Below are positions 24,841-42,388 of a DNA stretch of 64,000 nt, piece by piece. This DNA comes from Thermosediminibacter oceani DSM 16646 (GTDB lineage: Bacteria; Bacillota; Thermosediminibacteria; Thermosediminibacterales; Thermosediminibacteraceae): assembly GCF_000144645.1 (NCBI RefSeq), contig NC_014377.1, forward strand, positions 1,240,001-1,304,000. The letters are read 5' to 3'. The position numbers and the translations under genes were made by a program. The notes beneath the pieces are model-generated. The model saw only the letters and a program-made list of their open reading frames with translations. It did not search any database and had not been told where the DNA came from. Numbering within the stretch: position 1 is the stretch's first letter; each line of letters starts with the position of its first letter.

Positions 24841-25077
24841 CTAATCAAGTCGTGTGGCAAGATATTGTTGGAGAAAATGCAGTTTATTAATGTCGTCTAT
24901 GAGGGAATTAATATAAGTGATCCTCTCCCGAATCGGCGATTCATCATTTTTTATCATTGTTTCAAATCTTTCCGACACTTCTTTTCCGCAGACAGTTTTG
25001 TATGTTTGCTTTAAAGCCATAAGCCTCCTTTCGAGAATTTTGTTTTCATTAATTTCCAGCGTAAGCATTTCCCCCAT
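24841..25077 (-). CDS. Hypothetical helical phage protein, 78 residues
   Basis: Starts MGEMLTLEINENKILERRLM (the fourth codon, also ATG, is an alternative start) behind a G-rich ribosome binding region. It is charged and helical with coiled-coil potential in its last 35 residues (ERITYINSLIDDINKLHFLQ). No family is recognised. It lies 30 bases downstream of the integrase stop and could be an accessory such as an excisionase-sized factor, but no HTH is visible. Confidence 0.5.
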   Translation of the reverse strand: MGEMLTLEINENKILERRLMALKQTYKTVCGKEVSERFETMIKNDESPIRERITYINSLIDDINKLHFLQQYLATRLD

Positions 25078-26213: not shown

Positions 26214-26999
26214 TTACGATATTGCCTTTTGCTCCATTCTAAGCTTGTCTGAAATCATCGCGATAAATTCGGAGTTTGTGGGTTTTCCTTTGTCCTTTGG
26301 AATGGTATAGCCGAAAAGATTGTTTATCGTCTCTATACATCCCCTGTTCCACGCCACTTCTATGGCATGCCGGATTGCCCGTTCGACTCTGCTCGGTGTT
26401 GTATTATATTTGTTAGCTATAGTAGGATAAAGTACTTTCGTAACGGCGCCAAGGAGTTCTACATTGTTTACGACCATAGCGATTGCTTCCCTCAGATAAA
26501 AATAACCTTTAATATGGGCGGGAATCCCTATTTCATGTATGATATTGGTTATTTCCATTTCGAGATTGGAATCTTTTCGTTTATCGGGGGTATTGTTTGC
26601 AGTCCTAGTTTTCTTCTGCCCTGTATTAGAGGTTACAAGTTCACGAATACGCTCGACAAGGATTTTTAAATCAAAGGGCTTTACTACATAATAATCAGCA
26701 CCCAAATTGATAGCTTTTTGAGTGATCTTATCCTGACCTACAGCGGACAGCACTATAATTTTGGGCCTTTTATCGGAATTTGCTAATTTTTCGATCACAC
26801 CTAGGCCGTCAAGATTTGGCATGATTATATCCAGAACCACAAGGTCCGGATTCAGCTCCTGTACTTTTTCCAGCGCCTCAAGCCCGTTGTAGGCCTTACC
26901 TACGACTTCCATGTCATCTTCGCCCGAAAAATATTCTTCCAGAAGATCGCAAAATTCTTTATTGTCATCGACGAGCAGAATCCTTTTTTTATCATTCAT
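26214..26999 (-). CDS. spo0A: Sporulation master regulator Spo0A
   Basis: 261 residues. The receiver domain (residues 1-125) has acidic-pocket residues in [10 protein letters not shown], the phosphoacceptor Asp in [15 protein letters not shown] (about residue 57), Thr/Ser in IIVLSAVGQ and Lys in YYVVKPFDL. The C-terminal effector domain (residues about 150-261) holds the Spo0A recognition region, [20 protein letters not shown] and [20 protein letters not shown]. Phospho-Spo0A binds 0A boxes to start sporulation. A TGTCGAA box lies in its own leader. The C-terminus is full length even though a mobile island begins about 80 bases behind the stop. A GGGGGT ribosome binding site precedes the ATG. 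Confidence 0.97.
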
Positions 27000-27082: not shown

Positions 27083-28399
27083 TTAAAAATTAGATACCTG
27101 TCGTTCAATTTTCAATTTCGATATTTCCTCAATCATCCATTCGGCAAAAACTCCATAACCCCTTGTAGGATCATTGACGAATACGTGTGTAACAGCTCCT
27201 ACCAGATAACCATCTTGGATTATGGGACTCCCGCTCATTCCCTGTACGATGCCGCCGGTTTTTTCTATCAGCCTCGGATCTATAATTTTTATAATCATTC
27301 CCTTTGTACTGGGGAAATTCTGCCTCACAATTTTTTGTATTTCTATATCAAATTTTTCTATTCGCTCCCCATCGATAACAGTTAAAATCTGCGCCTTTCC
27401 CTCATGGGCGAAGCTGGCAAGAGCGACGGGGATTTCCGAATAATATGGATTTTTTACAGGTTCGTACATTCTTCCAAAAATACCGAATTGGGTGTTAGTC
27501 AATATATTACCCATCACTCTATCTTCTTCAACAAAAACCCCCCGTTTTTCCCCAGGTACGTTTTTTCTCGCCGGTGCAATAGAGGTTATGCTCGCTCTAA
27601 TGATTTCTCCCTGCCCGACCTCTACAATCCTACCCGTATCGGAATCGGATATTATATGACCCAGGGCGCCGTAATAGCCGGATTCGGGGTCATAAAAGGT
27701 TAGGGTGCCAACTCCCGCAGCTATATCCCTGACCCAAAGTCCAATCTGATATATACCGTCCCTGCTTTTTACCGCACCTAATTGGGTCTCGAAAGTTTTT
27801 CCGTTTCTTTTAACCGTTAAAGTTACAATTTTATCCTCATCCCTGTTTACTATTCTTGATAATTCCTCAGCAGTATAAATCTTATATCCGTTTACCATGG
27901 AGATGGTATCTCCCACCTGGATACCAGCTTCTCTGGCCGGGTAGCTGGTTTTTCCCTTTTCATCTATAACCGAAGCAATGCCAACCACAATAACCCCGTC
28001 AGGTCTCAGTTTTACACCTATCGAATGCCCTCCAGGTATGACTTTCACCTCCGGCAATACTTCAAGTTTCATCTTTTTAACGGGGATTATTCCAAATAAC
28101 CTGAACTCCAAATCATAGGTTCCCAGGCGTGAAGATTTGATAGAAAGGGGGTTTTTTAAATTTACATTCATCCTGTCCTTAAGCGCAGCACCGTTAATTA
28201 TTAAATAATCCGAGCTTTTGGCAAAGAGCTGAAGGGTAAAGGGAATTCTAAAATTCAACGTATGTTCTTTTCCTTCGATTACCCTTATTCTGTCGGGGAA
28301 CCTGTTTAACCCTGAAAATTGAGGGGAAAATGCTACTAGAGTTATCATTATTGCGATAAAAACGCCGATTAATTTCCTATTTTTGCTGTAAACCAACAC
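27083..28399 (-). CDS. spoIVB: SpoIVB serine peptidase
   Basis: 438 residues, GTG start behind GGGGAG. One N-terminal membrane helix (LIGVFIAIMITLVAFSP) anchors it. A PDZ domain (about residues 120-200, AREAGIQVGDTISMVNGYKI) and a C-terminal S55 peptidase domain follow, with the catalytic His in YGALGHIISDSDTG and Ser in VQGMSGSPIIQDG (about residue 390). SpoIVB is made in the forespore and triggers SpoIVFB to process pro-sigma-K. Its adjacency to spo0A and recN is conserved in spore formers. sigK is present later in this window. Confidence 0.95.
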   Translation of the reverse strand: MLVYSKNRKLIGVFIAIMITLVAFSPQFSGLNRFPDRIRVIEGKEHTLNFRIPFTLQLFAKSSDYLIINGAALKDRMNVNLKNPLSIKSSRLGTYDLEFRLFGIIPVKKMKLEVLPEVKVIPGGHSIGVKLRPDGVIVVGIASVIDEKGKTSYPAREAGIQVGDTISMVNGYKIYTAEELSRIVNRDEDKIVTLTVKRNGKTFETQLGAVKSRDGIYQIGLWVRDIAAGVGTLTFYDPESGYYGALGHIISDSDTGRIVEVGQGEIIRASITSIAPARKNVPGEKRGVFVEEDRVMGNILTNTQFGIFGRMYEPVKNPYYSEIPVALASFAHEGKAQILTVIDGERIEKFDIEIQKIVRQNFPSTKGMIIKIIDPRLIEKTGGIVQGMSGSPIIQDGYLVGAVTHVFVNDPTRGYGVFAEWMIEEISKLKIERQVSNF

Positions 28400-31586: not shown

Positions 31587-32102
31587 TCATTCACCTCTGG
31601 TTAAAAAACCCATTATAAAGCCGATAAAAAAAATGACAACGGCGTAAAAAAGATAGCGCACTTGAAAGTAATCTCTTTTAAGAATCGAATACTCAACGGT
31701 TTTAATTTTTCTCTGTTCCATATCCACTAGTATTAGTCCAGCAGGTTTATAAACTAGATAATATTCCAATAGCTGTCTTCGGGTGGCAGATGTGTTTAAA
31801 GAGGGGGATGTCTTGCCTGATTTTATCTCCGCCACGTATATTTTCCCATCCTTTTTTACTATCACGTCAGCCCTTACGGTAACTTTATGGGGTTTTCCGT
31901 TTACGAACACCTCGTAGGAAGCTTCTTTCTGTACATCTACTATATCAAAACCGTGTTTTTTTAGCAAACTCACAGCTCCGCGTTCGCTTATACGGGCTTT
32001 TTCCATTCGCTTCCTAAGCTTAAGGTCAAGAAAATACTTCCATCCAAGTATCCCCAGAATAGCACCTAAAATAATCAATAAGAAAACAGCATATAAATCC
32101 AT
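31587..32102 (-). CDS. Membrane-anchored PD-(D/E)XK nuclease-like protein
   Basis: 171 residues. An N-terminal membrane helix (LYAVFLLIILGAILGILGW) and a C-terminal one (LFYAVVIFFIGFIMGFLT) flank a soluble domain. In this domain VRADVIVKKDGKIYVAEIKSG (residues about 77-97, quoted here as VRADVIVKKDG and IYVAEIKSG) has the D...ExK pattern of PD-(D/E)XK nucleases, preceded by a helix (SERGAVSLLKKHGFDIVDVQ) with the Glu expected on the first core helix. Homologues sit at this place in related anaerobes with no known role. It overlaps nadK. Nuclease activity is inferred from motif only. Confidence 0.6.
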   Translation of the reverse strand: MDLYAVFLLIILGAILGILGWKYFLDLKLRKRMEKARISERGAVSLLKKHGFDIVDVQKEASYEVFVNGKPHKVTVRADVIVKKDGKIYVAEIKSGKTSPSLNTSATRRQLLEYYLVYKPAGLILVDMEQRKIKTVEYSILKRDYFQVRYLFYAVVIFFIGFIMGFLTRGE

Positions 32103-32124: not shown

Positions 32125-32919
32125 TTAATTAAGAAGCGTGTGAGCCTCCTCAACAATTTTTTTAATGTCTATCTTTGAATCGATATCGCGATATTTTTTA
32201 AACCATGCTAAAAATTCTATATTGCCCTTAGGCCCTTTTATCGGCGAAAAGGTGACACCCCTGCAAAAAAAACCGGCAACCTCGGCCGAAGCAATTACTT
32301 CACTTATGGCTTTCTCGTGCAACTTTCTGTCGCGCACGACTCCGTTTTTTACCTCACTCTTACCAACCTCAAACTGTGGTTTAATAAGAGTGATAAGATC
32401 TCCATCCTCTTTTAAAATTGAATAGAGAGGTTCGAATACCTTGGATAACGAGATAAATGAAAGATCTGCGGTTATTATATCCACCAGTTCCCCTATATCT
32501 TCAAATCTAATATATCTTATATTTTTCCGCTCGATGTTTACGACCCTCGGATCGTTTCTTAGGGAATAATCAAGCTGTCCGTACCCCACGTCGACCGCAT
32601 AAACTTTGGTAGCACCTTCTTTTAGCAGGCAATCGGTAAACCCCCCCGTCGAAGCACCAGCATCCAGTGCAACCTTCCCTCTAACGTCTATTGAAAAGGC
32701 AGTGAGGGCTTTTTTAAGTTTCAACCCACCCCTGCTGACATATGGCAAGGATCTTTCTTTCACTATAATATCTGAATTTATATCCACCATGGTCCCGGGT
32801 TTATCTATTTTTTTATTGTTGACGAAGACGTTACCCATCATTATCTCGGATTTCGCTCGCTCCCTGCTGGAAAAAAGTCCCCGCTGAACCAGCAACACGT
32901 CAAGCCTTTCTTTCTGCAA
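32125..32919 (-). CDS. tlyA: TlyA family rRNA 2'-O-methyltransferase / hemolysin A homologue
   Basis: 264 residues. An N-terminal S4 RNA-binding domain (RLDVLLVQRGLFSSRERAKS, residues 4-23) is followed by a FtsJ-like methyltransferase domain with the SAM motif ALDAGASTGGFTDCLL (about residue 84) and motif IV ITADLSFISL (about residue 150). TlyA proteins methylate ribosomal RNA in studied actinobacteria; the hemolysin name is historical. In many Firmicutes it follows dxs, but here oapA and the OLE RNA occupy the place between it and ispA. A start with a weak ribosome binding site (GAAGAAAATTTG region) is used. Confidence 0.92.
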   Translation of the reverse strand: MQKERLDVLLVQRGLFSSRERAKSEIMMGNVFVNNKKIDKPGTMVDINSDIIVKERSLPYVSRGGLKLKKALTAFSIDVRGKVALDAGASTGGFTDCLLKEGATKVYAVDVGYGQLDYSLRNDPRVVNIERKNIRYIRFEDIGELVDIITADLSFISLSKVFEPLYSILKEDGDLITLIKPQFEVGKSEVKNGVVRDRKLHEKAISEVIASAEVAGFFCRGVTFSPIKGPKGNIEFLAWFKKYRDIDSKIDIKKIVEEAHTLLN

Positions 32920-32937
32920 ATTTTCTTCACCCCAAAT

Positions 32938-33546
32938 CTATTTTCTACCGGTCTTACCCGGAAACAATTCGATCCCGAAACGCTCTTTCAACAAAAAAAG
33001 AATATAGGCAACCCTGCCGACAATCTCTTTGGAATTCTTGATAGCTATGTTTTTACCGAAAGCCTTTCCCCCTACTGTCATAGCAGAGATGAGTCCGGCT
33101 ATCAGAGTGCTGATAAGTATTTCTACTAATTCGCTACCGTCGGAGATTATCTTTAAAACAATGGAGGCTCCAGCGGTGCCGCTGACTATCCCAGAAATAT
33201 CACCTACCACATCGTTGCAGAAATTCGAAACCACATCGGCATTTCTTATCAGTTTTACCGCTTCCTTCGCCCCTGGAACTTTGTCAGCGGCCATGGCATG
33301 GAATGGGGTTTCGCTGGCAGAAGTTACAGCTACCCCTATGATGTCAAATATAATTCCGATCAGTACTATTCCCGAAAGTATAAAAAAAGAAACGATTAAA
33401 TTTACCCTTTCCATTAGCGTTTCTGATATTAAACTAAAAAAAACGGACAGCCCAAAAGTCATTAAGACAACTCTGTATATCCATCCAGCTTTTGGTCCTC
33501 CGTTGTTCCTTTTATTTTTATATCGTTTATTTTTGTTTTTACTCAA
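32938..33546 (-). CDS. oapA: OLE-associated protein OapA
   Basis: 202 residues. A strongly basic N-terminus (SKNKNKRYKNKRNNGG) is followed by hydrophobic segments: VVLMTFGLSVFFSLI, LIVSFFILSGIVLIGIIFDI, SDGSELVEILISTLIAGLIS with the region after it. Gly/Ala-rich stretches such as VVGDISGIVSGTAGASI lie between. The size, the three or more membrane passes and above all the position immediately downstream of the OLE RNA identify it as OapA. OapA binds OLE RNA and brings it to the membrane in Bacillus halodurans (Halalkalibacterium), where the complex affects ethanol, cold and Mg2+ stress. It starts 27 bases after the end of the RNA, with GAGGTG upstream. Confidence 0.92.
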   Translation of the reverse strand: MSKNKNKRYKNKRNNGGPKAGWIYRVVLMTFGLSVFFSLISETLMERVNLIVSFFILSGIVLIGIIFDIIGVAVTSASETPFHAMAADKVPGAKEAVKLIRNADVVSNFCNDVVGDISGIVSGTAGASIVLKIISDGSELVEILISTLIAGLISAMTVGGKAFGKNIAIKNSKEIVGRVAYILFLLKERFGIELFPGKTGRK

Positions 33547-33573
33547 AAATGTTCACCTCAGAATAACGAACGA

Positions 33574-34182
33574 AACAGGTGGCAGTGAACTGAGTAAATT
33601 TTGCGGCTTAGGTCCAGCAGGATTTCCCAGAGGAGCACCCTCCGTCGCCGGCAAGGGCGGTTCCCCTTTAAGCCCCTCTCTGCCATGTTGCCATGAGCAG
33701 GGCTGGATTGCCACTTAGACCGCACTGTAATCCTCAGTTCACTTCCTTGCGGAACAGTCTAGGAGTTTTCCTCACCGAAATCCACCTTCTCCTAGCCTCT
33801 TTTGCAGAAAAGGTTTCAAAGGTATTTAGCTGCATTTAAATGGCCAGTTTAAATGCAGCCTTATGCCTTTTTCCACCCTTTCCGCTCAAGGCAGGCTACA
33901 CTGCACCCAACACGGTTTGTATCGGATGCAGGTTCACCCCCCAAGCCGTAACGGAAGGCCGTGACCTTCCATCACGCACTTGGGTCTCCACGGGAGTAGG
34001 GTCGTGCCTGCATGCCTTTGCAGGTTGCCCCACTCCCTTACTCCCTGCACCAACCCCCGACTGGGCGTCGGCAGCCAGCACAAGGAACTTCATCGATGTG
34101 CCCTTGACGGATTTTTAGCCCCGTCTTCAGAGAAGAGGATTTCGACTAGAATACTGCACCACCTGTTTCTCCGTAAATCGCC
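33574..34182 (-). ncRNA. ole: OLE RNA (ornate, large, extremophilic RNA)
   Basis: About 609 non-coding bases of high GC content between ispA and oapA. The ends pair: AACAGGTGGTGCAGT near 34153-34168 with ACTGCCACCTGTT near 33574-33586, giving the closing P1 stem. Internal helices are obvious, for example a 12-pair hairpin GCTGCATTTAAA/TTTAAATGCAGC (33829-33840 with 33848-33859) and GC-rich arms around 33610-33720 and 33930-34060. Length, closing stem, neighbour oapA and the ispA/tlyA gene context all match the known OLE class. The RNA acts with OapA (and elsewhere-encoded OapB, OapC) as a membrane ribonucleoprotein tied to stress and Mg2+ homeostasis. The 5' end is predicted from the promoter. 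Confidence 0.95.
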
Positions 34183-34188
34183 AAACCT

Positions 34189-34217
34189 ATTATAACAAAA
34201 ACCATCCACGCGTTCAA
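34189..34217 (-). promoter_or_regulatory. Sigma-A promoter of the OLE RNA
   Basis: On the minus strand TTGAAC (34217-34212), a 17-base spacer and a perfect TATAAT (34194-34189) lie just upstream of the OLE P1 stem, predicting a start near 34182. The RNA therefore has its own strong promoter between ispA and itself. Confidence 0.88.
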
Positions 34218-34262: not shown

Positions 34263-35153
34263 TCAATACTGTCGTTCAACGAGAAAATCGACCAATTGCA
34301 CGAAAAATTCACCGTTTTTAAATTCAAGTATTATTTCTTTGGCTTCTTCCGAAAGATCCTTAATAAGCTTTACGGAATTCTCATACCCGTATACGCTCGG
34401 GAAAGTACTCTTTTTGTTTCTAACGTCGCTTCCTACCGGCTTTCCGAGCTTTTTTTCGTCGCCACAGATATCTAAGAGGTCGTCGACTATCTGAAAAATA
34501 AGACCGATCTTCTCTCCGAATATATCTAATTTATTAAGATCCGATGCGGGGGCTTCCGCCAGTCTCGCTCCTGCCCAGAGAGATGCTTGAATCAGACAGC
34601 CGGTCTTATGGTAATCCATATAAAACAAGGTTTTTTCATCTATCGATACGCCCTGCGACAGAATATCGACGGTTTGGCCTCCAATCATCCCCAGACTCCC
34701 CGACGCCCGAGATATCCTGCCTATGACGTCAATTACAGCCTGCATGGATATGCCCTCGATTTGTGCATTCTTAACTATCGTATTGAAGGCAAGGGTAAGC
34801 AGGGCATCTCCGGCTAAAAGCGCAATGGCGTCCCCGAAGACCTTATGGCATGTGGGCTTTCCCCTTCTAAAATCATCATTATCCATTATGGGTAGGTCGT
34901 CATGAATGAGCGAATAAGTATGGATCATTTCTATTCCGCAGGCTGTGGGTATTACCTTTTCCCCCTGCAATCCGAAAAGTTCTGCGGCTTTCATCGTCAG
35001 CACCGGTCTGATTCGCTTGCCTCCGTTGAAAGTGCTGTAACGCATGGCTTCGTGAATTTTCTGCGGATACTCGTTGCTTTTCGGTATGTAAAAGTCAAGA
35101 GCTTTTTCAATTATTTTGCCGGCTTCCTTCAGTTCGATTTCAAAATTCTTCAA
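34263..35153 (-). CDS. ispA: Polyprenyl (farnesyl) diphosphate synthase
   Basis: About 296 residues. TTG at 35153 (LKNFEIELKEAGK) is the likely start, since GGAGGGT at about 35165 overlaps the nominal GTG. First aspartate-rich motif LIHDDLPIMDNDDFRRGKPT (about residue 82), second QIVDDLLDICGD (about residue 222), and GGKRIRPVL near residue 45. The enzyme makes farnesyl or geranylgeranyl diphosphate for undecaprenyl phosphate and quinones. It directly follows xseB in the nusB-xseA-xseB-ispA operon and is the last gene before the OLE RNA. dxs, which often follows ispA, is not at this place. Confidence 0.94.
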   Translation of the reverse strand: MKNFEIELKEAGKIIEKALDFYIPKSNEYPQKIHEAMRYSTFNGGKRIRPVLTMKAAELFGLQGEKVIPTACGIEMIHTYSLIHDDLPIMDNDDFRRGKPTCHKVFGDAIALLAGDALLTLAFNTIVKNAQIEGISMQAVIDVIGRISRASGSLGMIGGQTVDILSQGVSIDEKTLFYMDYHKTGCLIQASLWAGARLAEAPASDLNKLDIFGEKIGLIFQIVDDLLDICGDEKKLGKPVGSDVRNKKSTFPSVYGYENSVKLIKDLSEEAKEIILEFKNGEFFVQLVDFLVERQY

Positions 35154-35155
35154 CT

Positions 35156-35386
35156 TCAGATACACCCTCCGTTAAAATCTTTAAAATCAATCTCTCCGTT
35201 CAAATCCTTGATCAAAACCTGAACTCGTCCCTCTGCTTCATCCAATATCTTTGTGCATATCTTTGTAAGCCTTATTCCTTCCTCAAAGAGGCTCAGCGAT
35301 TCCTCCAGCGATAAATTACCTTTTTCAAGCTTTTCGATAATCTCCTCAAGCCGTGCGATTGCATCTTCATATTTATACTCTGCCAT
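35156..35386 (-). CDS. xseB: Exodeoxyribonuclease VII small subunit
   Basis: 76 residues with the family core YEDAIARLEEIIEKLEKGNL and SLEESLSLFEEGIRLTK (residues 4-42), two helices that form the antiparallel hairpin wrapping XseA. The gene overlaps xseA by 14 bases and ends two bases before the likely ispA start. With XseA it degrades single-stranded DNA to oligonucleotides. Confidence 0.95.
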   Translation of the reverse strand: MAEYKYEDAIARLEEIIEKLEKGNLSLEESLSLFEEGIRLTKICTKILDEAEGRVQVLIKDLNGEIDFKDFNGGCI

Positions 35387-37871: not shown

Positions 37872-38249
37872 TTATTTTGCTTTGGAATCTTCTTCTTTCC
37901 CGGGTTGACCGAAATTTACTCCCTGAACGTGTATGTTAACTTCAACCACCGAAAGTCCGGTCATATTTTCTATAGCTTTCTTTACGTTTTCCTGGACTTT
38001 CCAAGCTACTTCCGGAATTCGCACTCCGTAGTTAACTATTATGTAAAGATCGACCGCTACCTCTTTTTCTCCCACCTGGACTTTTACGCCTTTTGATAAA
38101 TTTTTCCGCCCGAGCATTTCGGCTATACCGCCCGCTATGCCGCCGCTCATACCCGCTACCCCTTCAATTTCTGTAGCAGCAAGGCCGGCTATTATGCTTA
38201 CAACTTCATCGGCTATCCTTATGGACCCTTTTCCGCTGTTTGTTTCCAT
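37872..38249 (-). CDS. Asp23/Gls24 family envelope stress protein
   Basis: About 125 residues from ATG 38249 (METNSGKGSIRIADE), with GGAGGG ten bases upstream. The Asp23 core reads VVSIIAGLAATEIEGVAGMS (residues 17-36) and VAVDLYIIVNYGVRIPEVAW (about 63-82), then VQENVKKAIENMTGLSVVEV. It forms a membrane-associated network with AmaP. A sigma-A type promoter lies directly upstream, making it the first gene of an operon that probably runs through nusB to ispA. A glycine-rich insert (GGIAGGIAEMLGRKN) is usual in clostridial members. Confidence 0.9.
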   Translation of the reverse strand: METNSGKGSIRIADEVVSIIAGLAATEIEGVAGMSGGIAGGIAEMLGRKNLSKGVKVQVGEKEVAVDLYIIVNYGVRIPEVAWKVQENVKKAIENMTGLSVVEVNIHVQGVNFGQPGKEEDSKAK

Positions 38250-38308
38250 GTTTATGACACCCTCCAAATTCTATAGCTTTATTGAAATCTAGGCAAAAGG
38301 CCGATTAA

Positions 38309-38337
38309 ATTATAACAAAAATCAGAAGAAAATACAA
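38309..38337 (-). promoter_or_regulatory. Sigma-A type promoter of the asp23-nusB-ispA operon
   Basis: TTGTAT (38337-38332), a 17-base spacer and TATAAT (38314-38309) on the minus strand lie 60 bases upstream of asp23, in the gap after spoIIIAH. Confidence 0.75.
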
Positions 38338-38346
38338 TTGCACCCA

Positions 38347-38889
38347 TTATTTTCTTTCGACAATCGTTATCTTATCCATGGGATAGCCGGTGGCCCTTGT
38401 TACCACATCGGTTATTTGTGCCACTTCTTTTTGCGAGAGGCCATCAGATCTCACTATGACGTTCACCGAATCTCCTGAAATGATTATAATCGCATCCTCG
38501 AAGCCCTTGGCTTTAATAAGATTTTCGACCATCATTTCCTTTTCAACTTTTTCTGCCAGGGCTATGAGATCCTTTTGTGCCTTTTCTTTTGACTCCTGGC
38601 TTGCATTTGGATTATTTATAATTTCTCTCAGATAGTCGGCTTCCTGGCTTCTTAGGCGATCTCTCTCCAGGCGGTAGTCTATAAAAAAGTCTTTCTCGCC
38701 CGCATTTTTGGCACTAGCATTATCCCCTTCCGATGTTTTCAAAGCAGCTACATCCTCAGCTTCGGGTGTGCCCGAGTTCTTGTAGATGACCTTAGGATAG
38801 TTTCCGATCAGCATGAGGTATATTGAAAATACCAGCAAGCCTAAAAACATTATTATCAATACCGTCTTCCTCTTAAACATGAACATCAA
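38347..38889 (-). CDS. spoIIIAH: SpoIIIAH
   Basis: 180 residues: one N-terminal membrane helix (TVLIIMFLGLLVFSIYLMLI), a variable Glu/Lys-rich linker, a helical stretch (LRSQEADYLREIINNPNASQ) and a ring-building C-terminal domain (residues 100-180; GFEDAIIIISGDSVNVIVRS, ITDVVTRATGYPMDKITIVE). SpoIIIAH is made in the mother cell and pairs with forespore SpoIIQ across the intermembrane space. It is the last gene of the spoIIIA operon. The protein is somewhat shorter than in B. subtilis (218 residues), in the linker. Confidence 0.93.
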   Translation of the reverse strand: MMFMFKRKTVLIIMFLGLLVFSIYLMLIGNYPKVIYKNSGTPEAEDVAALKTSEGDNASAKNAGEKDFFIDYRLERDRLRSQEADYLREIINNPNASQESKEKAQKDLIALAEKVEKEMMVENLIKAKGFEDAIIIISGDSVNVIVRSDGLSQKEVAQITDVVTRATGYPMDKITIVERK

Positions 38890-38901
38890 CTTAATCCCTC
38901 C

Positions 38902-39498
38902 TCAGTTTTTTGAATAAGGTAATACCTTAATCTTATAAACAGGAACACCAAGCAAAGTGGAAGTCGCTTGTGTTATTCTTTCGACAGTCTCGGAAGACTC
39001 ACCTCCGTCAGCAACTATTAAAACCCCTTTTATTGCGGGCATCATCTTTTTCACGAGCAGAGGTTCGTCCTCCCCCCCTTTATTGAGCAGAACCACCTGT
39101 TTGTTTACCTGAACTTCGGTTATCGTCCTGGTACCGCCTTCACTGTCGTTTTCTTCGGTAACCCTTTTATTGTCAACAGTATTAAAAGCCGGTTCTACCT
39201 GATTTTCAGTCTCTAGGGTAAGCATTACTTTGACCCTGCCTACCCCTTCCACCTGTGCCAGTATCTGCTCGAGTTTTTTTTCAATGTCTTGCTGAATAAA
39301 CGGTTGATCGGTGGGAATTTTAATATCTGTTGTGCTGCCGTCTACGCTTTTGTGGGAGTAATCTCCCTGTATGGAAATCTTGCCTAAAGTGAGCAGAAAA
39401 AATCCCACCAGACCTAAAATTATGAGTGTAGATATTGATTTATTTTTGTTTTTTTTAAAAAGATCTAAAAGATTTTTTAGTTTAATTTCCCCTTCCAT
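38902..39498 (-). CDS. spoIIIAG: SpoIIIAG
   Basis: 198 residues. Membrane helix ISTLIILGLVGFFLLTLG (about residues 21-38), then a periplasm-facing domain with a ring-building motif region (EKKLEQILAQVEGVGRVKVM, LVKKMMPAIKGVLIVADGGE, VERITQATSTLLGVPVYKIK). SpoIIIAG forms a large ring of the forespore feeding channel. The start overlaps spoIIIAF by 22 bases and the end is 13 bases from spoIIIAH. Confidence 0.93.
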   Translation of the reverse strand: MEGEIKLKNLLDLFKKNKNKSISTLIILGLVGFFLLTLGKISIQGDYSHKSVDGSTTDIKIPTDQPFIQQDIEKKLEQILAQVEGVGRVKVMLTLETENQVEPAFNTVDNKRVTEENDSEGGTRTITEVQVNKQVVLLNKGGEDEPLLVKKMMPAIKGVLIVADGGESSETVERITQATSTLLGVPVYKIKVLPYSKN

Positions 39499-40088
39499 GG
39501 ATCCCCCTCCAGTTCCAGGTGAATGTTGGCCTCAGGAATTTCGTAAAATTTGCTCAAGTAGTCCTTTAGTTCGGCGATCTCTTTTTCCAGAGCGTATTTT
39601 GATTTACTCTGCGCTGGTTGATTTAGTTTTACGGAAACTTTTTCTATACCTTTCTGTACCTGTCTACCATCGGCTTCTTGAAGTATCAGGCGAATTTGTT
39701 CTATCTTTCCGTTCTGATCTATTTTTATGTCAGTTTTCGCTACTTCAAAAAGTGTATTATTTTCTACTTGCTGAGCGATTAAAGTCTCCAATTCTTTCTT
39801 GTACCGATCAAGCGCAATTTCAATATTTCTTTTTTTAAATTCTTCGGTTTTCATCATCAGCTGATCCTGATCGAGATAATTTTTAATCTCCAGCTGCGTC
39901 CTGGTAAAAGCTATATCTCCTTTCAATAATACGATAACCGGATTTAGTATTGTAATCATTACGACAAGTCCCAGTACAACCCTCACATATTTTTGAAGAT
40001 TGCTGCTCGGCAAAAGAAAATCCACGAATACCGTAAACATCACAACCATAATTATCTGTCTAATCCACATGCTCAAATTCTCAAGCAC
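39477..40088 (-). CDS. spoIIIAF: SpoIIIAF
   Basis: 203 residues. Two N-terminal membrane helices (IIMVVMFTVFVDFLLPS, YVRVVLGLVVMITILNPVIV) are followed by a soluble ring-forming domain (about residues 70-200) ending YEIPEANIHLELE. Part of the mother-cell ring complex with SpoIIIAG and SpoIIIAH. It lies four bases after spoIIIAE and overlaps spoIIIAG. Confidence 0.92.
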   Translation of the reverse strand: MLENLSMWIRQIIMVVMFTVFVDFLLPSSNLQKYVRVVLGLVVMITILNPVIVLLKGDIAFTRTQLEIKNYLDQDQLMMKTEEFKKRNIEIALDRYKKELETLIAQQVENNTLFEVAKTDIKIDQNGKIEQIRLILQEADGRQVQKGIEKVSVKLNQPAQSKSKYALEKEIAELKDYLSKFYEIPEANIHLELEGDPWKGKLN

Positions 40089-40092
40089 GGCA

Positions 40093-41250
40093 TCACCTCA
40101 ATATTACGGCCAGATTACCCGAGGCCAGTATTATCGTTATTGCAATAAAAAACATCATCGCCACCGAAGCAACCGAAATGAACACCATCGTTAGCGAATT
40201 TCCTATGTCGTTTAGGCACTTTACTATGGAATCCTCTCCAACCGGCTGTATGATCGCTGCACTTAGGCGGTATATGAAAATCATTGAAAGTATTTTTATC
40301 ACCGGAAAGAGAGTTATGATAAATATGAACAGCAGTCCTATAAGGCCTACGGTATTTTTTAGGATCAAGGAATAGCCTACCACCGCATCCAGAGCATCGG
40401 AAAAAATTCCTCCGACTATTGGAACAAAATTTTTCGAAGCAAATTTTGCAGTTCTGATTGATATTCCGTCAACCGTAGCAGCTGCAGCCCCCTGAACTAC
40501 CATTATGCCTAGAAATACGCTTAAAAAAAGTCCGAGTAAAAATACGCATACCTGTCTTAACAGTTGGGCAAGATGAGACACGTGAAAGCTGTCCGATATA
40601 TTATTGACCAGGCTCAAAACCGAGATGAAAAAGATCACCGGCAGGATGATATCTTTGATCCACGTGCTTGCAGCGGTTATGCCAATAAAGATAAGCGGAT
40701 TGAAGACATTAACTGAAGTAATTCCTCCTACGGCGGCCAGCAGGGTAAATACCGTAGGCATTAAGGCATGCACAAAAGATACCATGTTGGAAATAGCGTC
40801 TCGCCCTGTATTTATTGCGATTATAAAGCTTTGCACTGCAATTACGACCAAAACAAGGTAAATCGCGCTGTAAGCCATCCTTCCGATATTGTCCTTTTCA
40901 AAACCGTTATTAAGGTTTTTGAGTACCGCACAAATCACAGAGAGAGCAACCAGTTTTGCCAGCAGGTGGTAATTAGCGGTGATTTCGCGAAAGACATATT
41001 TGATAATTCCATTTACTAAACCTCTAAGATCGTATCTTTGGTTCCCCCTCAGGGTATTTATAAGGTCTTTTAAATCATAGGAAGGGACATAGTCACCGTA
41101 TTCGCGGTTCAATTCTCTCAAAAAACTATCTAGTTCTTGGGTATCCAGGTTTTCCAGCTGCTTTTCCACGTCGTCTGCAGCCAAAGCCACCGGCGAAATT
41201 ATTATCAAAAATATCAAAAGGCTGAACAATACTTTTTTCAAAACTATCAC
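40093..41250 (-). CDS. spoIIIAE: SpoIIIAE
   Basis: 385 residues. A signal-like N-terminus (VLFSLLIFLIIISPVALAAD) is followed by a short extracytoplasmic region and seven or more membrane helices (LLAKLVALSVICAVLKNLNN, IGFIGITAASTWIKDIILPV-type segments, LIGLLFIFIITLFPVIKIL). It is the multispanning channel-like member of the spoIIIA complex, conserved in all endospore formers. Spacing to both neighbours is under five bases. Confidence 0.93.
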   Translation of the reverse strand: MIVLKKVLFSLLIFLIIISPVALAADDVEKQLENLDTQELDSFLRELNREYGDYVPSYDLKDLINTLRGNQRYDLRGLVNGIIKYVFREITANYHLLAKLVALSVICAVLKNLNNGFEKDNIGRMAYSAIYLVLVVIAVQSFIIAINTGRDAISNMVSFVHALMPTVFTLLAAVGGITSVNVFNPLIFIGITAASTWIKDIILPVIFFISVLSLVNNISDSFHVSHLAQLLRQVCVFLLGLFLSVFLGIMVVQGAAAATVDGISIRTAKFASKNFVPIVGGIFSDALDAVVGYSLILKNTVGLIGLLFIFIITLFPVIKILSMIFIYRLSAAIIQPVGEDSIVKCLNDIGNSLTMVFISVASVAMMFFIAITIILASGNLAVILR

Positions 41251-41253
41251 CTT

Positions 41254-41640
41254 TTAAGGAAGAATTTTCAGTAAAAGGTCTAAAACCGCCATAAGAATCG
41301 GTACCGAAAGTAACATGATTATAATTTTTGCCGCAAATTCAATTTTAGATGCTATGGAGGAAGAACCGGAGTCCCTGCATATCTGCGCTCCGAATTCGGC
41401 TATATAAGCTATGCCTATTATCTTGAGTATCGTATTCAGGTAAATAAAGTCTATGTTGGCCCTTCTTGCCATATCCTGAAGCACGTTCAACGCAGACGCT
41501 ACTTTATTTAACATTAAAAGGAATACAATCGCCCCGACCACTATGCTAATTTGCAAGGCAATTTCGGGCCGGTCTTCTTTTAGCAAAACCACCATTATAG
41601 CTGCTACAAGACTGATACCTACGATTTGGATTATCTCCAT
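41254..41640 (-). CDS. spoIIIAD: SpoIIIAD
   Basis: 128 residues with four hydrophobic segments (IIQIVGISLVAAIMVVLL, IALQISIVVGAIVFLLML, the ILKIIGIAYIAEFGAQICRD region, IIMLLSVPILMAVLDLLLKI). SpoIIIAD and SpoIIIAC are related small membrane proteins; this one carries the extra N-terminal helices. It lies between spoIIIAC and spoIIIAE with short gaps. Confidence 0.92.
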   Translation of the reverse strand: MEIIQIVGISLVAAIMVVLLKEDRPEIALQISIVVGAIVFLLMLNKVASALNVLQDMARRANIDFIYLNTILKIIGIAYIAEFGAQICRDSGSSSIASKIEFAAKIIIMLLSVPILMAVLDLLLKILP

Positions 41641-41651
41641 GCCTACACCCC

Positions 41652-41849
41652 TTAGTAAAGCTGGAACATTGACTTTACGTTGGCAAAAAGCTGGCTGATG
41701 AGCTGAATAACCATCATGAGGACGATAACTACCCCTACCAACGTAGTCATCTGAGCCTGTTCCTTTCTTCCTGCCTCGTCCAGCACCTTGCTCAGGATCG
41801 ATATGACAATTCCTATGCCGGCGATTTTAAACAGAACATCCACATTCAT
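41652..41849 (-). CDS. spoIIIAC: SpoIIIAC
   Basis: 65 residues from ATG 41849 (MNVDVLFKIAGIGIVISIL) with GAGAGGTG six bases upstream; the open frame begins earlier but overlaps spoIIIAB without need. Two membrane helices with the conserved DEAGRKEQAQM turn between them. The size is that of B. subtilis SpoIIIAC. Confidence 0.93.
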   Translation of the reverse strand: MNVDVLFKIAGIGIVISILSKVLDEAGRKEQAQMTTLVGVVIVLMMVIQLISQLFANVKSMFQLY

Positions 41850-41866
41850 TGGTAACACCTCTCGAT

Positions 41867-42388
41867 TTAATATAATAGGAGGACTACCGTCAATCCGGTT
41901 AAAACTCCCAGATATCTCCACATTTTTTCATTTTTCTGTTTTTCTTCAACGGCCAGAACTTCCTGCTGCCTTAGCTGAGATAGAGTCAGTTTCAAATTCC
42001 TTATCTGGTCGTCCTTATCGGACGATCCCAGATATTTGCCGAAGGACGTCAGTATTTCAAAATCGGATTCCTGGAGGGGGAACTGGGATCTAAATTCTCT
42101 AAGGGACTTTTCCCAGGCCTCTCCCGCAGTAAAACCCTCTATTGATAACAGAAGCTGTCTGACCCTCTCTAAAAACTTGGAAATTTCCGGATCGCAGCTC
42201 CTGCTTACATTTTTCAAAGCTTCTGGTAGAGGAGTTTGACCATAATCGATCTCGGTTTCCAGCATGGACAGAGCCTGCTGTAGGTTTCTTAACGTCCTGG
42301 GCCGTTGCTGGTAATAACCTGCTATTATGAAGCCGATCATAGTTGATGAAAAGATCACCAAAATAGCTCCCAGTATCTTAAACAGCAT
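41867..42388 (-). CDS. spoIIIAB: SpoIIIAB
   Basis: 173 residues. An N-terminal membrane helix (ILGAILVIFSSTMIGFIIAG) and a C-terminal one (WRYLGVLTGLTVVLLLY) flank a helical cytoplasmic domain (LRNLQQALSMLETEIDYGQT). The fold is related to type II/IV secretion GspF/PilC proteins. It partners the SpoIIIAA ATPase, whose gene it overlaps by 11 bases. Confidence 0.93.
   Translation of the reverse strand: MLFKILGAILVIFSSTMIGFIIAGYYQQRPRTLRNLQQALSMLETEIDYGQTPLPEALKNVSRSCDPEISKFLERVRQLLLSIEGFTAGEAWEKSLREFRSQFPLQESDFEILTSFGKYLGSSDKDDQIRNLKLTLSQLRQQEVLAVEEKQKNEKMWRYLGVLTGLTVVLLLY

Follow-up and report, generated by a model that had tools for sequence, protein, structure and literature searches.

The window that we analysed is a stretch of 64,000 nucleotides of the genome of Thermosediminibacter oceani DSM 16646, which is assembled as one contig of 2,280,035 bp. 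The species is anaerobic, stains Gram-negative and has a growth range of 52-76 C, and its sporulation has not been observed (PMC3035372). As an anaerobic and thermophilic member of the Bacillota, it is the type of host expected for OLE RNA. The gene order at the locus is nusB-xseA-xseB-ispA-OLE-oapA-tlyA-(PD-(D/E)XK protein)-nadK-argR-recN, where ispA and tlyA were identified by profile matches (Table 1) and nusB, xseA/B, nadK, argR and recN were assigned by eye from the open reading frames (ORFs). The initial annotation had described this same context of ispA, tlyA, argR, recN and nusB. Between the end of ispA and the start of oapA there is a non-coding gap of 716 bp. Other genes of the region include one at 31587-32102 (minus), between tlyA and nadK, encoding a 171-aa protein whose ends are hydrophobic and which has a PD-(D/E)XK nuclease-like (Cas4-like) domain. 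ORFs at 27083-28399, 26214-26999 and 37872-42388 (minus) resemble, when read by eye, sporulation genes of the spoIVB, spo0A and spoIIIA types.

Table 1. Coordinates of the features of the ole-oapA locus, given as positions in the window.
Feature	Position	Strand	Evidence
Extended -10 sigma-A-type promoter, TTGAAC-17-TATAAT with TG (predicted)	34189..34217	minus	Sequence; conserved position
OLE RNA, full-length class	33563..34178	minus	RF01071 match; fold z-score
5' arm of P1, GAAACAGGTGGTG	34157..34169	minus	13 pairs with 33572-33584, covarying
3' arm of P1, TGCCACCTGTTTC	33572..33584	minus	Pairing and covariation
oapA, 202 aa membrane protein	32938..33546	minus	TTG start; GAGGTG ribosome site upstream
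ispA, farnesyl diphosphate synthase, upstream neighbour	34263..35165	minus	NF045485, 348 bits, above cut-off
tlyA, downstream neighbour	32125..32919	minus	TIGR00478, 275 bits, above cut-off

With cmscan, we compared the complete window with every Rfam family and obtained a single match. The gap between ispA and oapA matches the OLE model (RF01071) over its full length (model positions 1-616 of 616) with 535.2 bits and an E-value of 3.8e-154, where the gathering score of the model is 50. No other Rfam family was found at E <= 0.1 between positions 25000 and 42000. The strand encoding the RNA has a folding energy of -304.9 kcal/mol, compared with -219.8 +/- 5.3 kcal/mol for shuffled sequences (z = -16.2), and its G+C content is 53% versus 41% for the window. 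The initial annotation, which had proposed a complete OLE RNA in a non-coding, GC-rich and strongly paired tract, is thus borne out. As judged from its sequence, this is a genuine and complete OLE gene, of an RNA class that is already known and is not itself new. A survey covering every GTDB species counted 2,822 OLE matches in Bacillota (Fernando and Breaker 2024, PMC11332333), and the T. oceani genome is very probably among them.

The RNA resembles full-length OLE (PMC11332333) in its length, in its site between ispA and oapA and in its stems, since the alignment to the model retains all of them, including P7, P8, P9 and P13. It has the RNA class and the core conserved nucleotides in common with OLE variants 1 (TANB77 clade) and 2 (RF39 clade). 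However, the T. oceani RNA has P7, P8, P9 and the OapB site in full, whereas in these variants one or another of them is shortened or missing (PMC11332333). Hence, we assign it to the full-length class and to neither variant, because P7, P8, P9 and P13 are present. The loops that make the dimer contacts in the cryo-EM structures of OLE RNA (PMC12286853, PMC12265935) are also conserved, i.e. the A-rich P4 loop CUAAAAAU, the GCCCA and GGCA loops of P5.1/P6.1 and the palindromic UGGCCA loop of P9. One difference from full-length OLE is that J5/6 has one U fewer (GUAAGG instead of GUUAAGG), a change that is common in relatives. A separate case is an Oscillospiraceae OLE (L112:2133-2826, 370.8 bits), where the P5/P6 region is reshaped and the usual GUUAAGG joint is lacking.

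The two ends of the RNA pair over 13 positions to form the closing stem P1 that had been claimed from the sequence (Table 1). We compared 75 OLE loci and found that the longest Watson-Crick run between the ends averages 9.1, against 6.1 when one side is shuffled. In a fixed register over 74 loci the pairs covary: one position is G-C in 39 and A-U in 26, and at the next one A-U, G-C, U-A and C-G all occur. The columns of P1 are unpaired in the Rfam structure line, but the published OLE model does include this stem. The mature RNA probably extends from about 34182 to about 33570.

The promoter proposed in the initial annotation is present at the expected place, with a predicted +1 at about 34182, some bases 5' of P1. 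A lone match of this type proves little, because the scanned region holds 10 promoter-like sites when 9.4 are expected from shuffles. We therefore looked at its position in the 75 OLE loci, which come from many Bacillota lineages, using the extended -10 pattern TGnTATAAT with at least 5 of 6. Such an element lies at the 5' end of OLE in 61 loci, where shuffling predicts 5.2 and windows elsewhere in these loci predict 2.5, an excess that is descriptive since OLE loci are not independent. Given this conserved position, we take a dedicated promoter to be a feature of the OLE class, and the predicted promoter of T. oceani is well supported. We found no intrinsic terminator between the OLE RNA and oapA. 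As a consequence, a joint ole-oapA transcript that is later trimmed is as likely as a discrete one. A polycistronic transcript has been reported in H. halodurans (PMC12265935).

The gene downstream had been described as oapA-like, and several observations agree with this. Its product matches the CNNM profile weakly (E 6.3e-5) and shares with 14 OapA relatives their invariant residues, e.g. CNDV.GD and T.GGKA.GK. Its predicted fold (mean pLDDT 77) retrieves CNNM transporters first, with MtCorB at probability 1.00, E 1.3e-3 and TM 0.46. The model thus suggests that OapA has the transmembrane fold of the CNNM magnesium transporters MpfA, CorB and CorC; unlike them, it has only 202 aa, too few to include the CBS and CorC domains. 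By OapA, the closest named relative is T. litoriperuensis (95% identical). In H. halodurans, OapA has been reported to bind OLE RNA.

The other partners known from full-length OLE hosts, OapB, OapC and bS21, are also encoded in the T. oceani genome. A search with the KOW domain returned only two places as candidates for OapB, which by size and position look like rplX and nusG. We located oapB by gene order, between map and infA (G000, C1:139217-139504), and its product then matched the PDB entry 7k9b, 'OLE-associated protein B', with E 4.5e-14. The oapC gene lies just before rpsL (G000, C1:123107-123355) and its product matches YbxF (4lck/3v7e; E about 5e-15). Another L7Ae protein, encoded beside nusA (C1:1209329), was rejected as OapC for its YlxQ-like position. 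The check for OapB and OapC homologues that accompanied the first description of the locus is therefore positive for both. As in other full-length OLE hosts, MpfA is absent: we found no MpfA-type CNNM transporter in the T. oceani genome, where OapA is the only CNNM match. Among relatives, MpfA-like CNNM proteins occur in all 8 near-complete genomes lacking OLE and in 12 of the 49 that have it (Fisher p = 8e-5). This anticorrelation has already been published, and the absence of MpfA-type proteins is reported for OLE hosts (PMC11332333).

OLE was detected in 49 of 61 relatives and in none of the 14 control genomes. It adjoins oapA, directly upstream and on the same strand, in 80 of 80 oapA loci, which were fetched from named genomes by OapA similarity and of which 4 are cut by contig ends. 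The apparent OLE-negative relatives include incomplete genomes. For example, G016 lacks OLE only by assembly, since the contig breaks off right at its oapA. Genome G039 has a weak OLE (L120:1143-2200, 169.9 bits) with a run of N inside; next to it lie the remains of a broken oapA, and dxs comes after these. It also encodes an MpfA-type protein, and its ole-oapA pair is apparently in decay. We also found OLE-oapA of the Bacillota type in records titled Actinomycetota MAG (L064) and Pseudomonas sp. ISL-84 (L089), which are probably misnamed or contaminated assemblies.

We noted two further differences from full-length OLE. In H. halodurans, bS21 binding has been attributed to the sequence CCUCCU in P6, which mimics the tail of 16S rRNA (PMC12054373). 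The P6 of T. oceani (34040-33985) has CUACUCCC at this position, and both CCUCCU and the shorter CCUCC anti-Shine-Dalgarno mimic are absent. Among 73 readable loci, T. oceani included and all chosen by similarity to its OapA, CCUCCU occurs in one and CCUCC in 8 more, while in 40 neither of the four-base segments CUCC and CCUC occurs. This rarity suggests that the mimic is not a general feature of OLE, even if the P6 stem itself is. As the mimic is missing from the T. oceani RNA, its mode of bS21 binding may differ.

The second difference is that dxs, which is often a neighbour, does not adjoin oapA in T. oceani, whereas relatives have it at the junction between oapA and tlyA (window 32919-32938). 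Moreover, we found no canonical DXS in the genome: the best matches, a split transketolase and further proteins resembling thiamine enzymes, reach 223 bits for a cut-off of 466. There was also no match to the canonical DXR (DXR-I) or to HMG-CoA reductase in this genome, which does encode IspG, IspF and IspH. The missing DXR-I is explained by the record of DXR-II in T. oceani and Tepidanaerobacter (PMC3847144). At E 1e-100, dxs was found in none of the 22 genomes searched from the order of T. oceani and in 8 of the 9 searched outside it, mostly right beside ole-oapA. Hence, the ole-oapA pair has persisted in this order after the loss of dxs, and the idea mentioned in PMC10898510 that OLE acts through Dxs is weakened. 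We tentatively suggest, with slightly less than even odds, that OLE works in this order without the bS21 mimic and without dxs, as a self-standing system with its own conserved promoter that is not tied to the synthesis of isoprenoid precursors.

It is important to consider whether the locus could be something other than a gene for a stand-alone RNA. The arrangement could be that of a structured 5' leader, or a riboswitch-like regulator acting in cis on the translation of oapA. The start of oapA lies 17 bases past the matched end of OLE, there is no terminator before it, a shared promoter is likely, and the RNA is found directly 5' of oapA on the same strand in all fetched loci. However, we regard this explanation as very unlikely, because the match covers the full OLE model, because the 13 pairs of P1 close the RNA ahead of the ribosome site of oapA, and because OLE of H. 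halodurans is a stable and abundant membrane RNA with several protein partners (PMC12265935, PMC11332333).

The two remaining explanations have an even smaller, almost negligible probability. The RNA overlaps with ORFs of 229, 92, 71 and 65 aa on the two strands, and one of these could in principle be a real gene. These ORFs are mechanical and have no other support, and most of the longest one runs antisense to oapA. What is conserved in dozens of lineages is the modelled RNA structure, with compensatory changes in P1. We thus rejected a coding region, since conservation tracks RNA structure. Decayed copies of OLE do exist, as shown by G039 with its weak match beside a broken oapA, so that the T. 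oceani gene might be non-functional. This is hardly credible, given that it matches the complete model with 535 bits, that its oapA is an uninterrupted and conserved reading frame, and that all the partners are encoded.

The best explanation, to which we give a probability of about 0.97, is that T. oceani has an ole gene with a sigma-A-type promoter whose RNA of about 610 nt would work with OapA, OapB and OapC. The predicted extended -10 promoter directly upstream would start the transcript, which probably continues into oapA, and the OLE RNA would then be trimmed out. By analogy with OLE RNAs of known structure, it may form a homodimer. OapA, as a membrane protein with a CNNM fold, would bind the RNA and anchor it at the cell membrane. 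OapB would bind P12.2/P13 and OapC the k-turn of P5/P6, both as folding partners. If the particle acts as in H. halodurans, it would tune the handling of metal ions (Mg2+) and the adaptation to stress and to poor carbon sources. Assembly, membrane location and the role in stress are transposed here from other species. We favour the view that the OLE RNA gates or scaffolds a CNNM-like ion transporter.

Two current ideas about OLE are constrained by these comparisons in testable ways: the mimic for bS21 is no general feature, and OLE can do without the link to Dxs. T. oceani offers a complete thermophilic OLE in a genome that encodes the known partner proteins, and this RNA could be a favourable subject for studies aimed at resolving the structure of domain 2.
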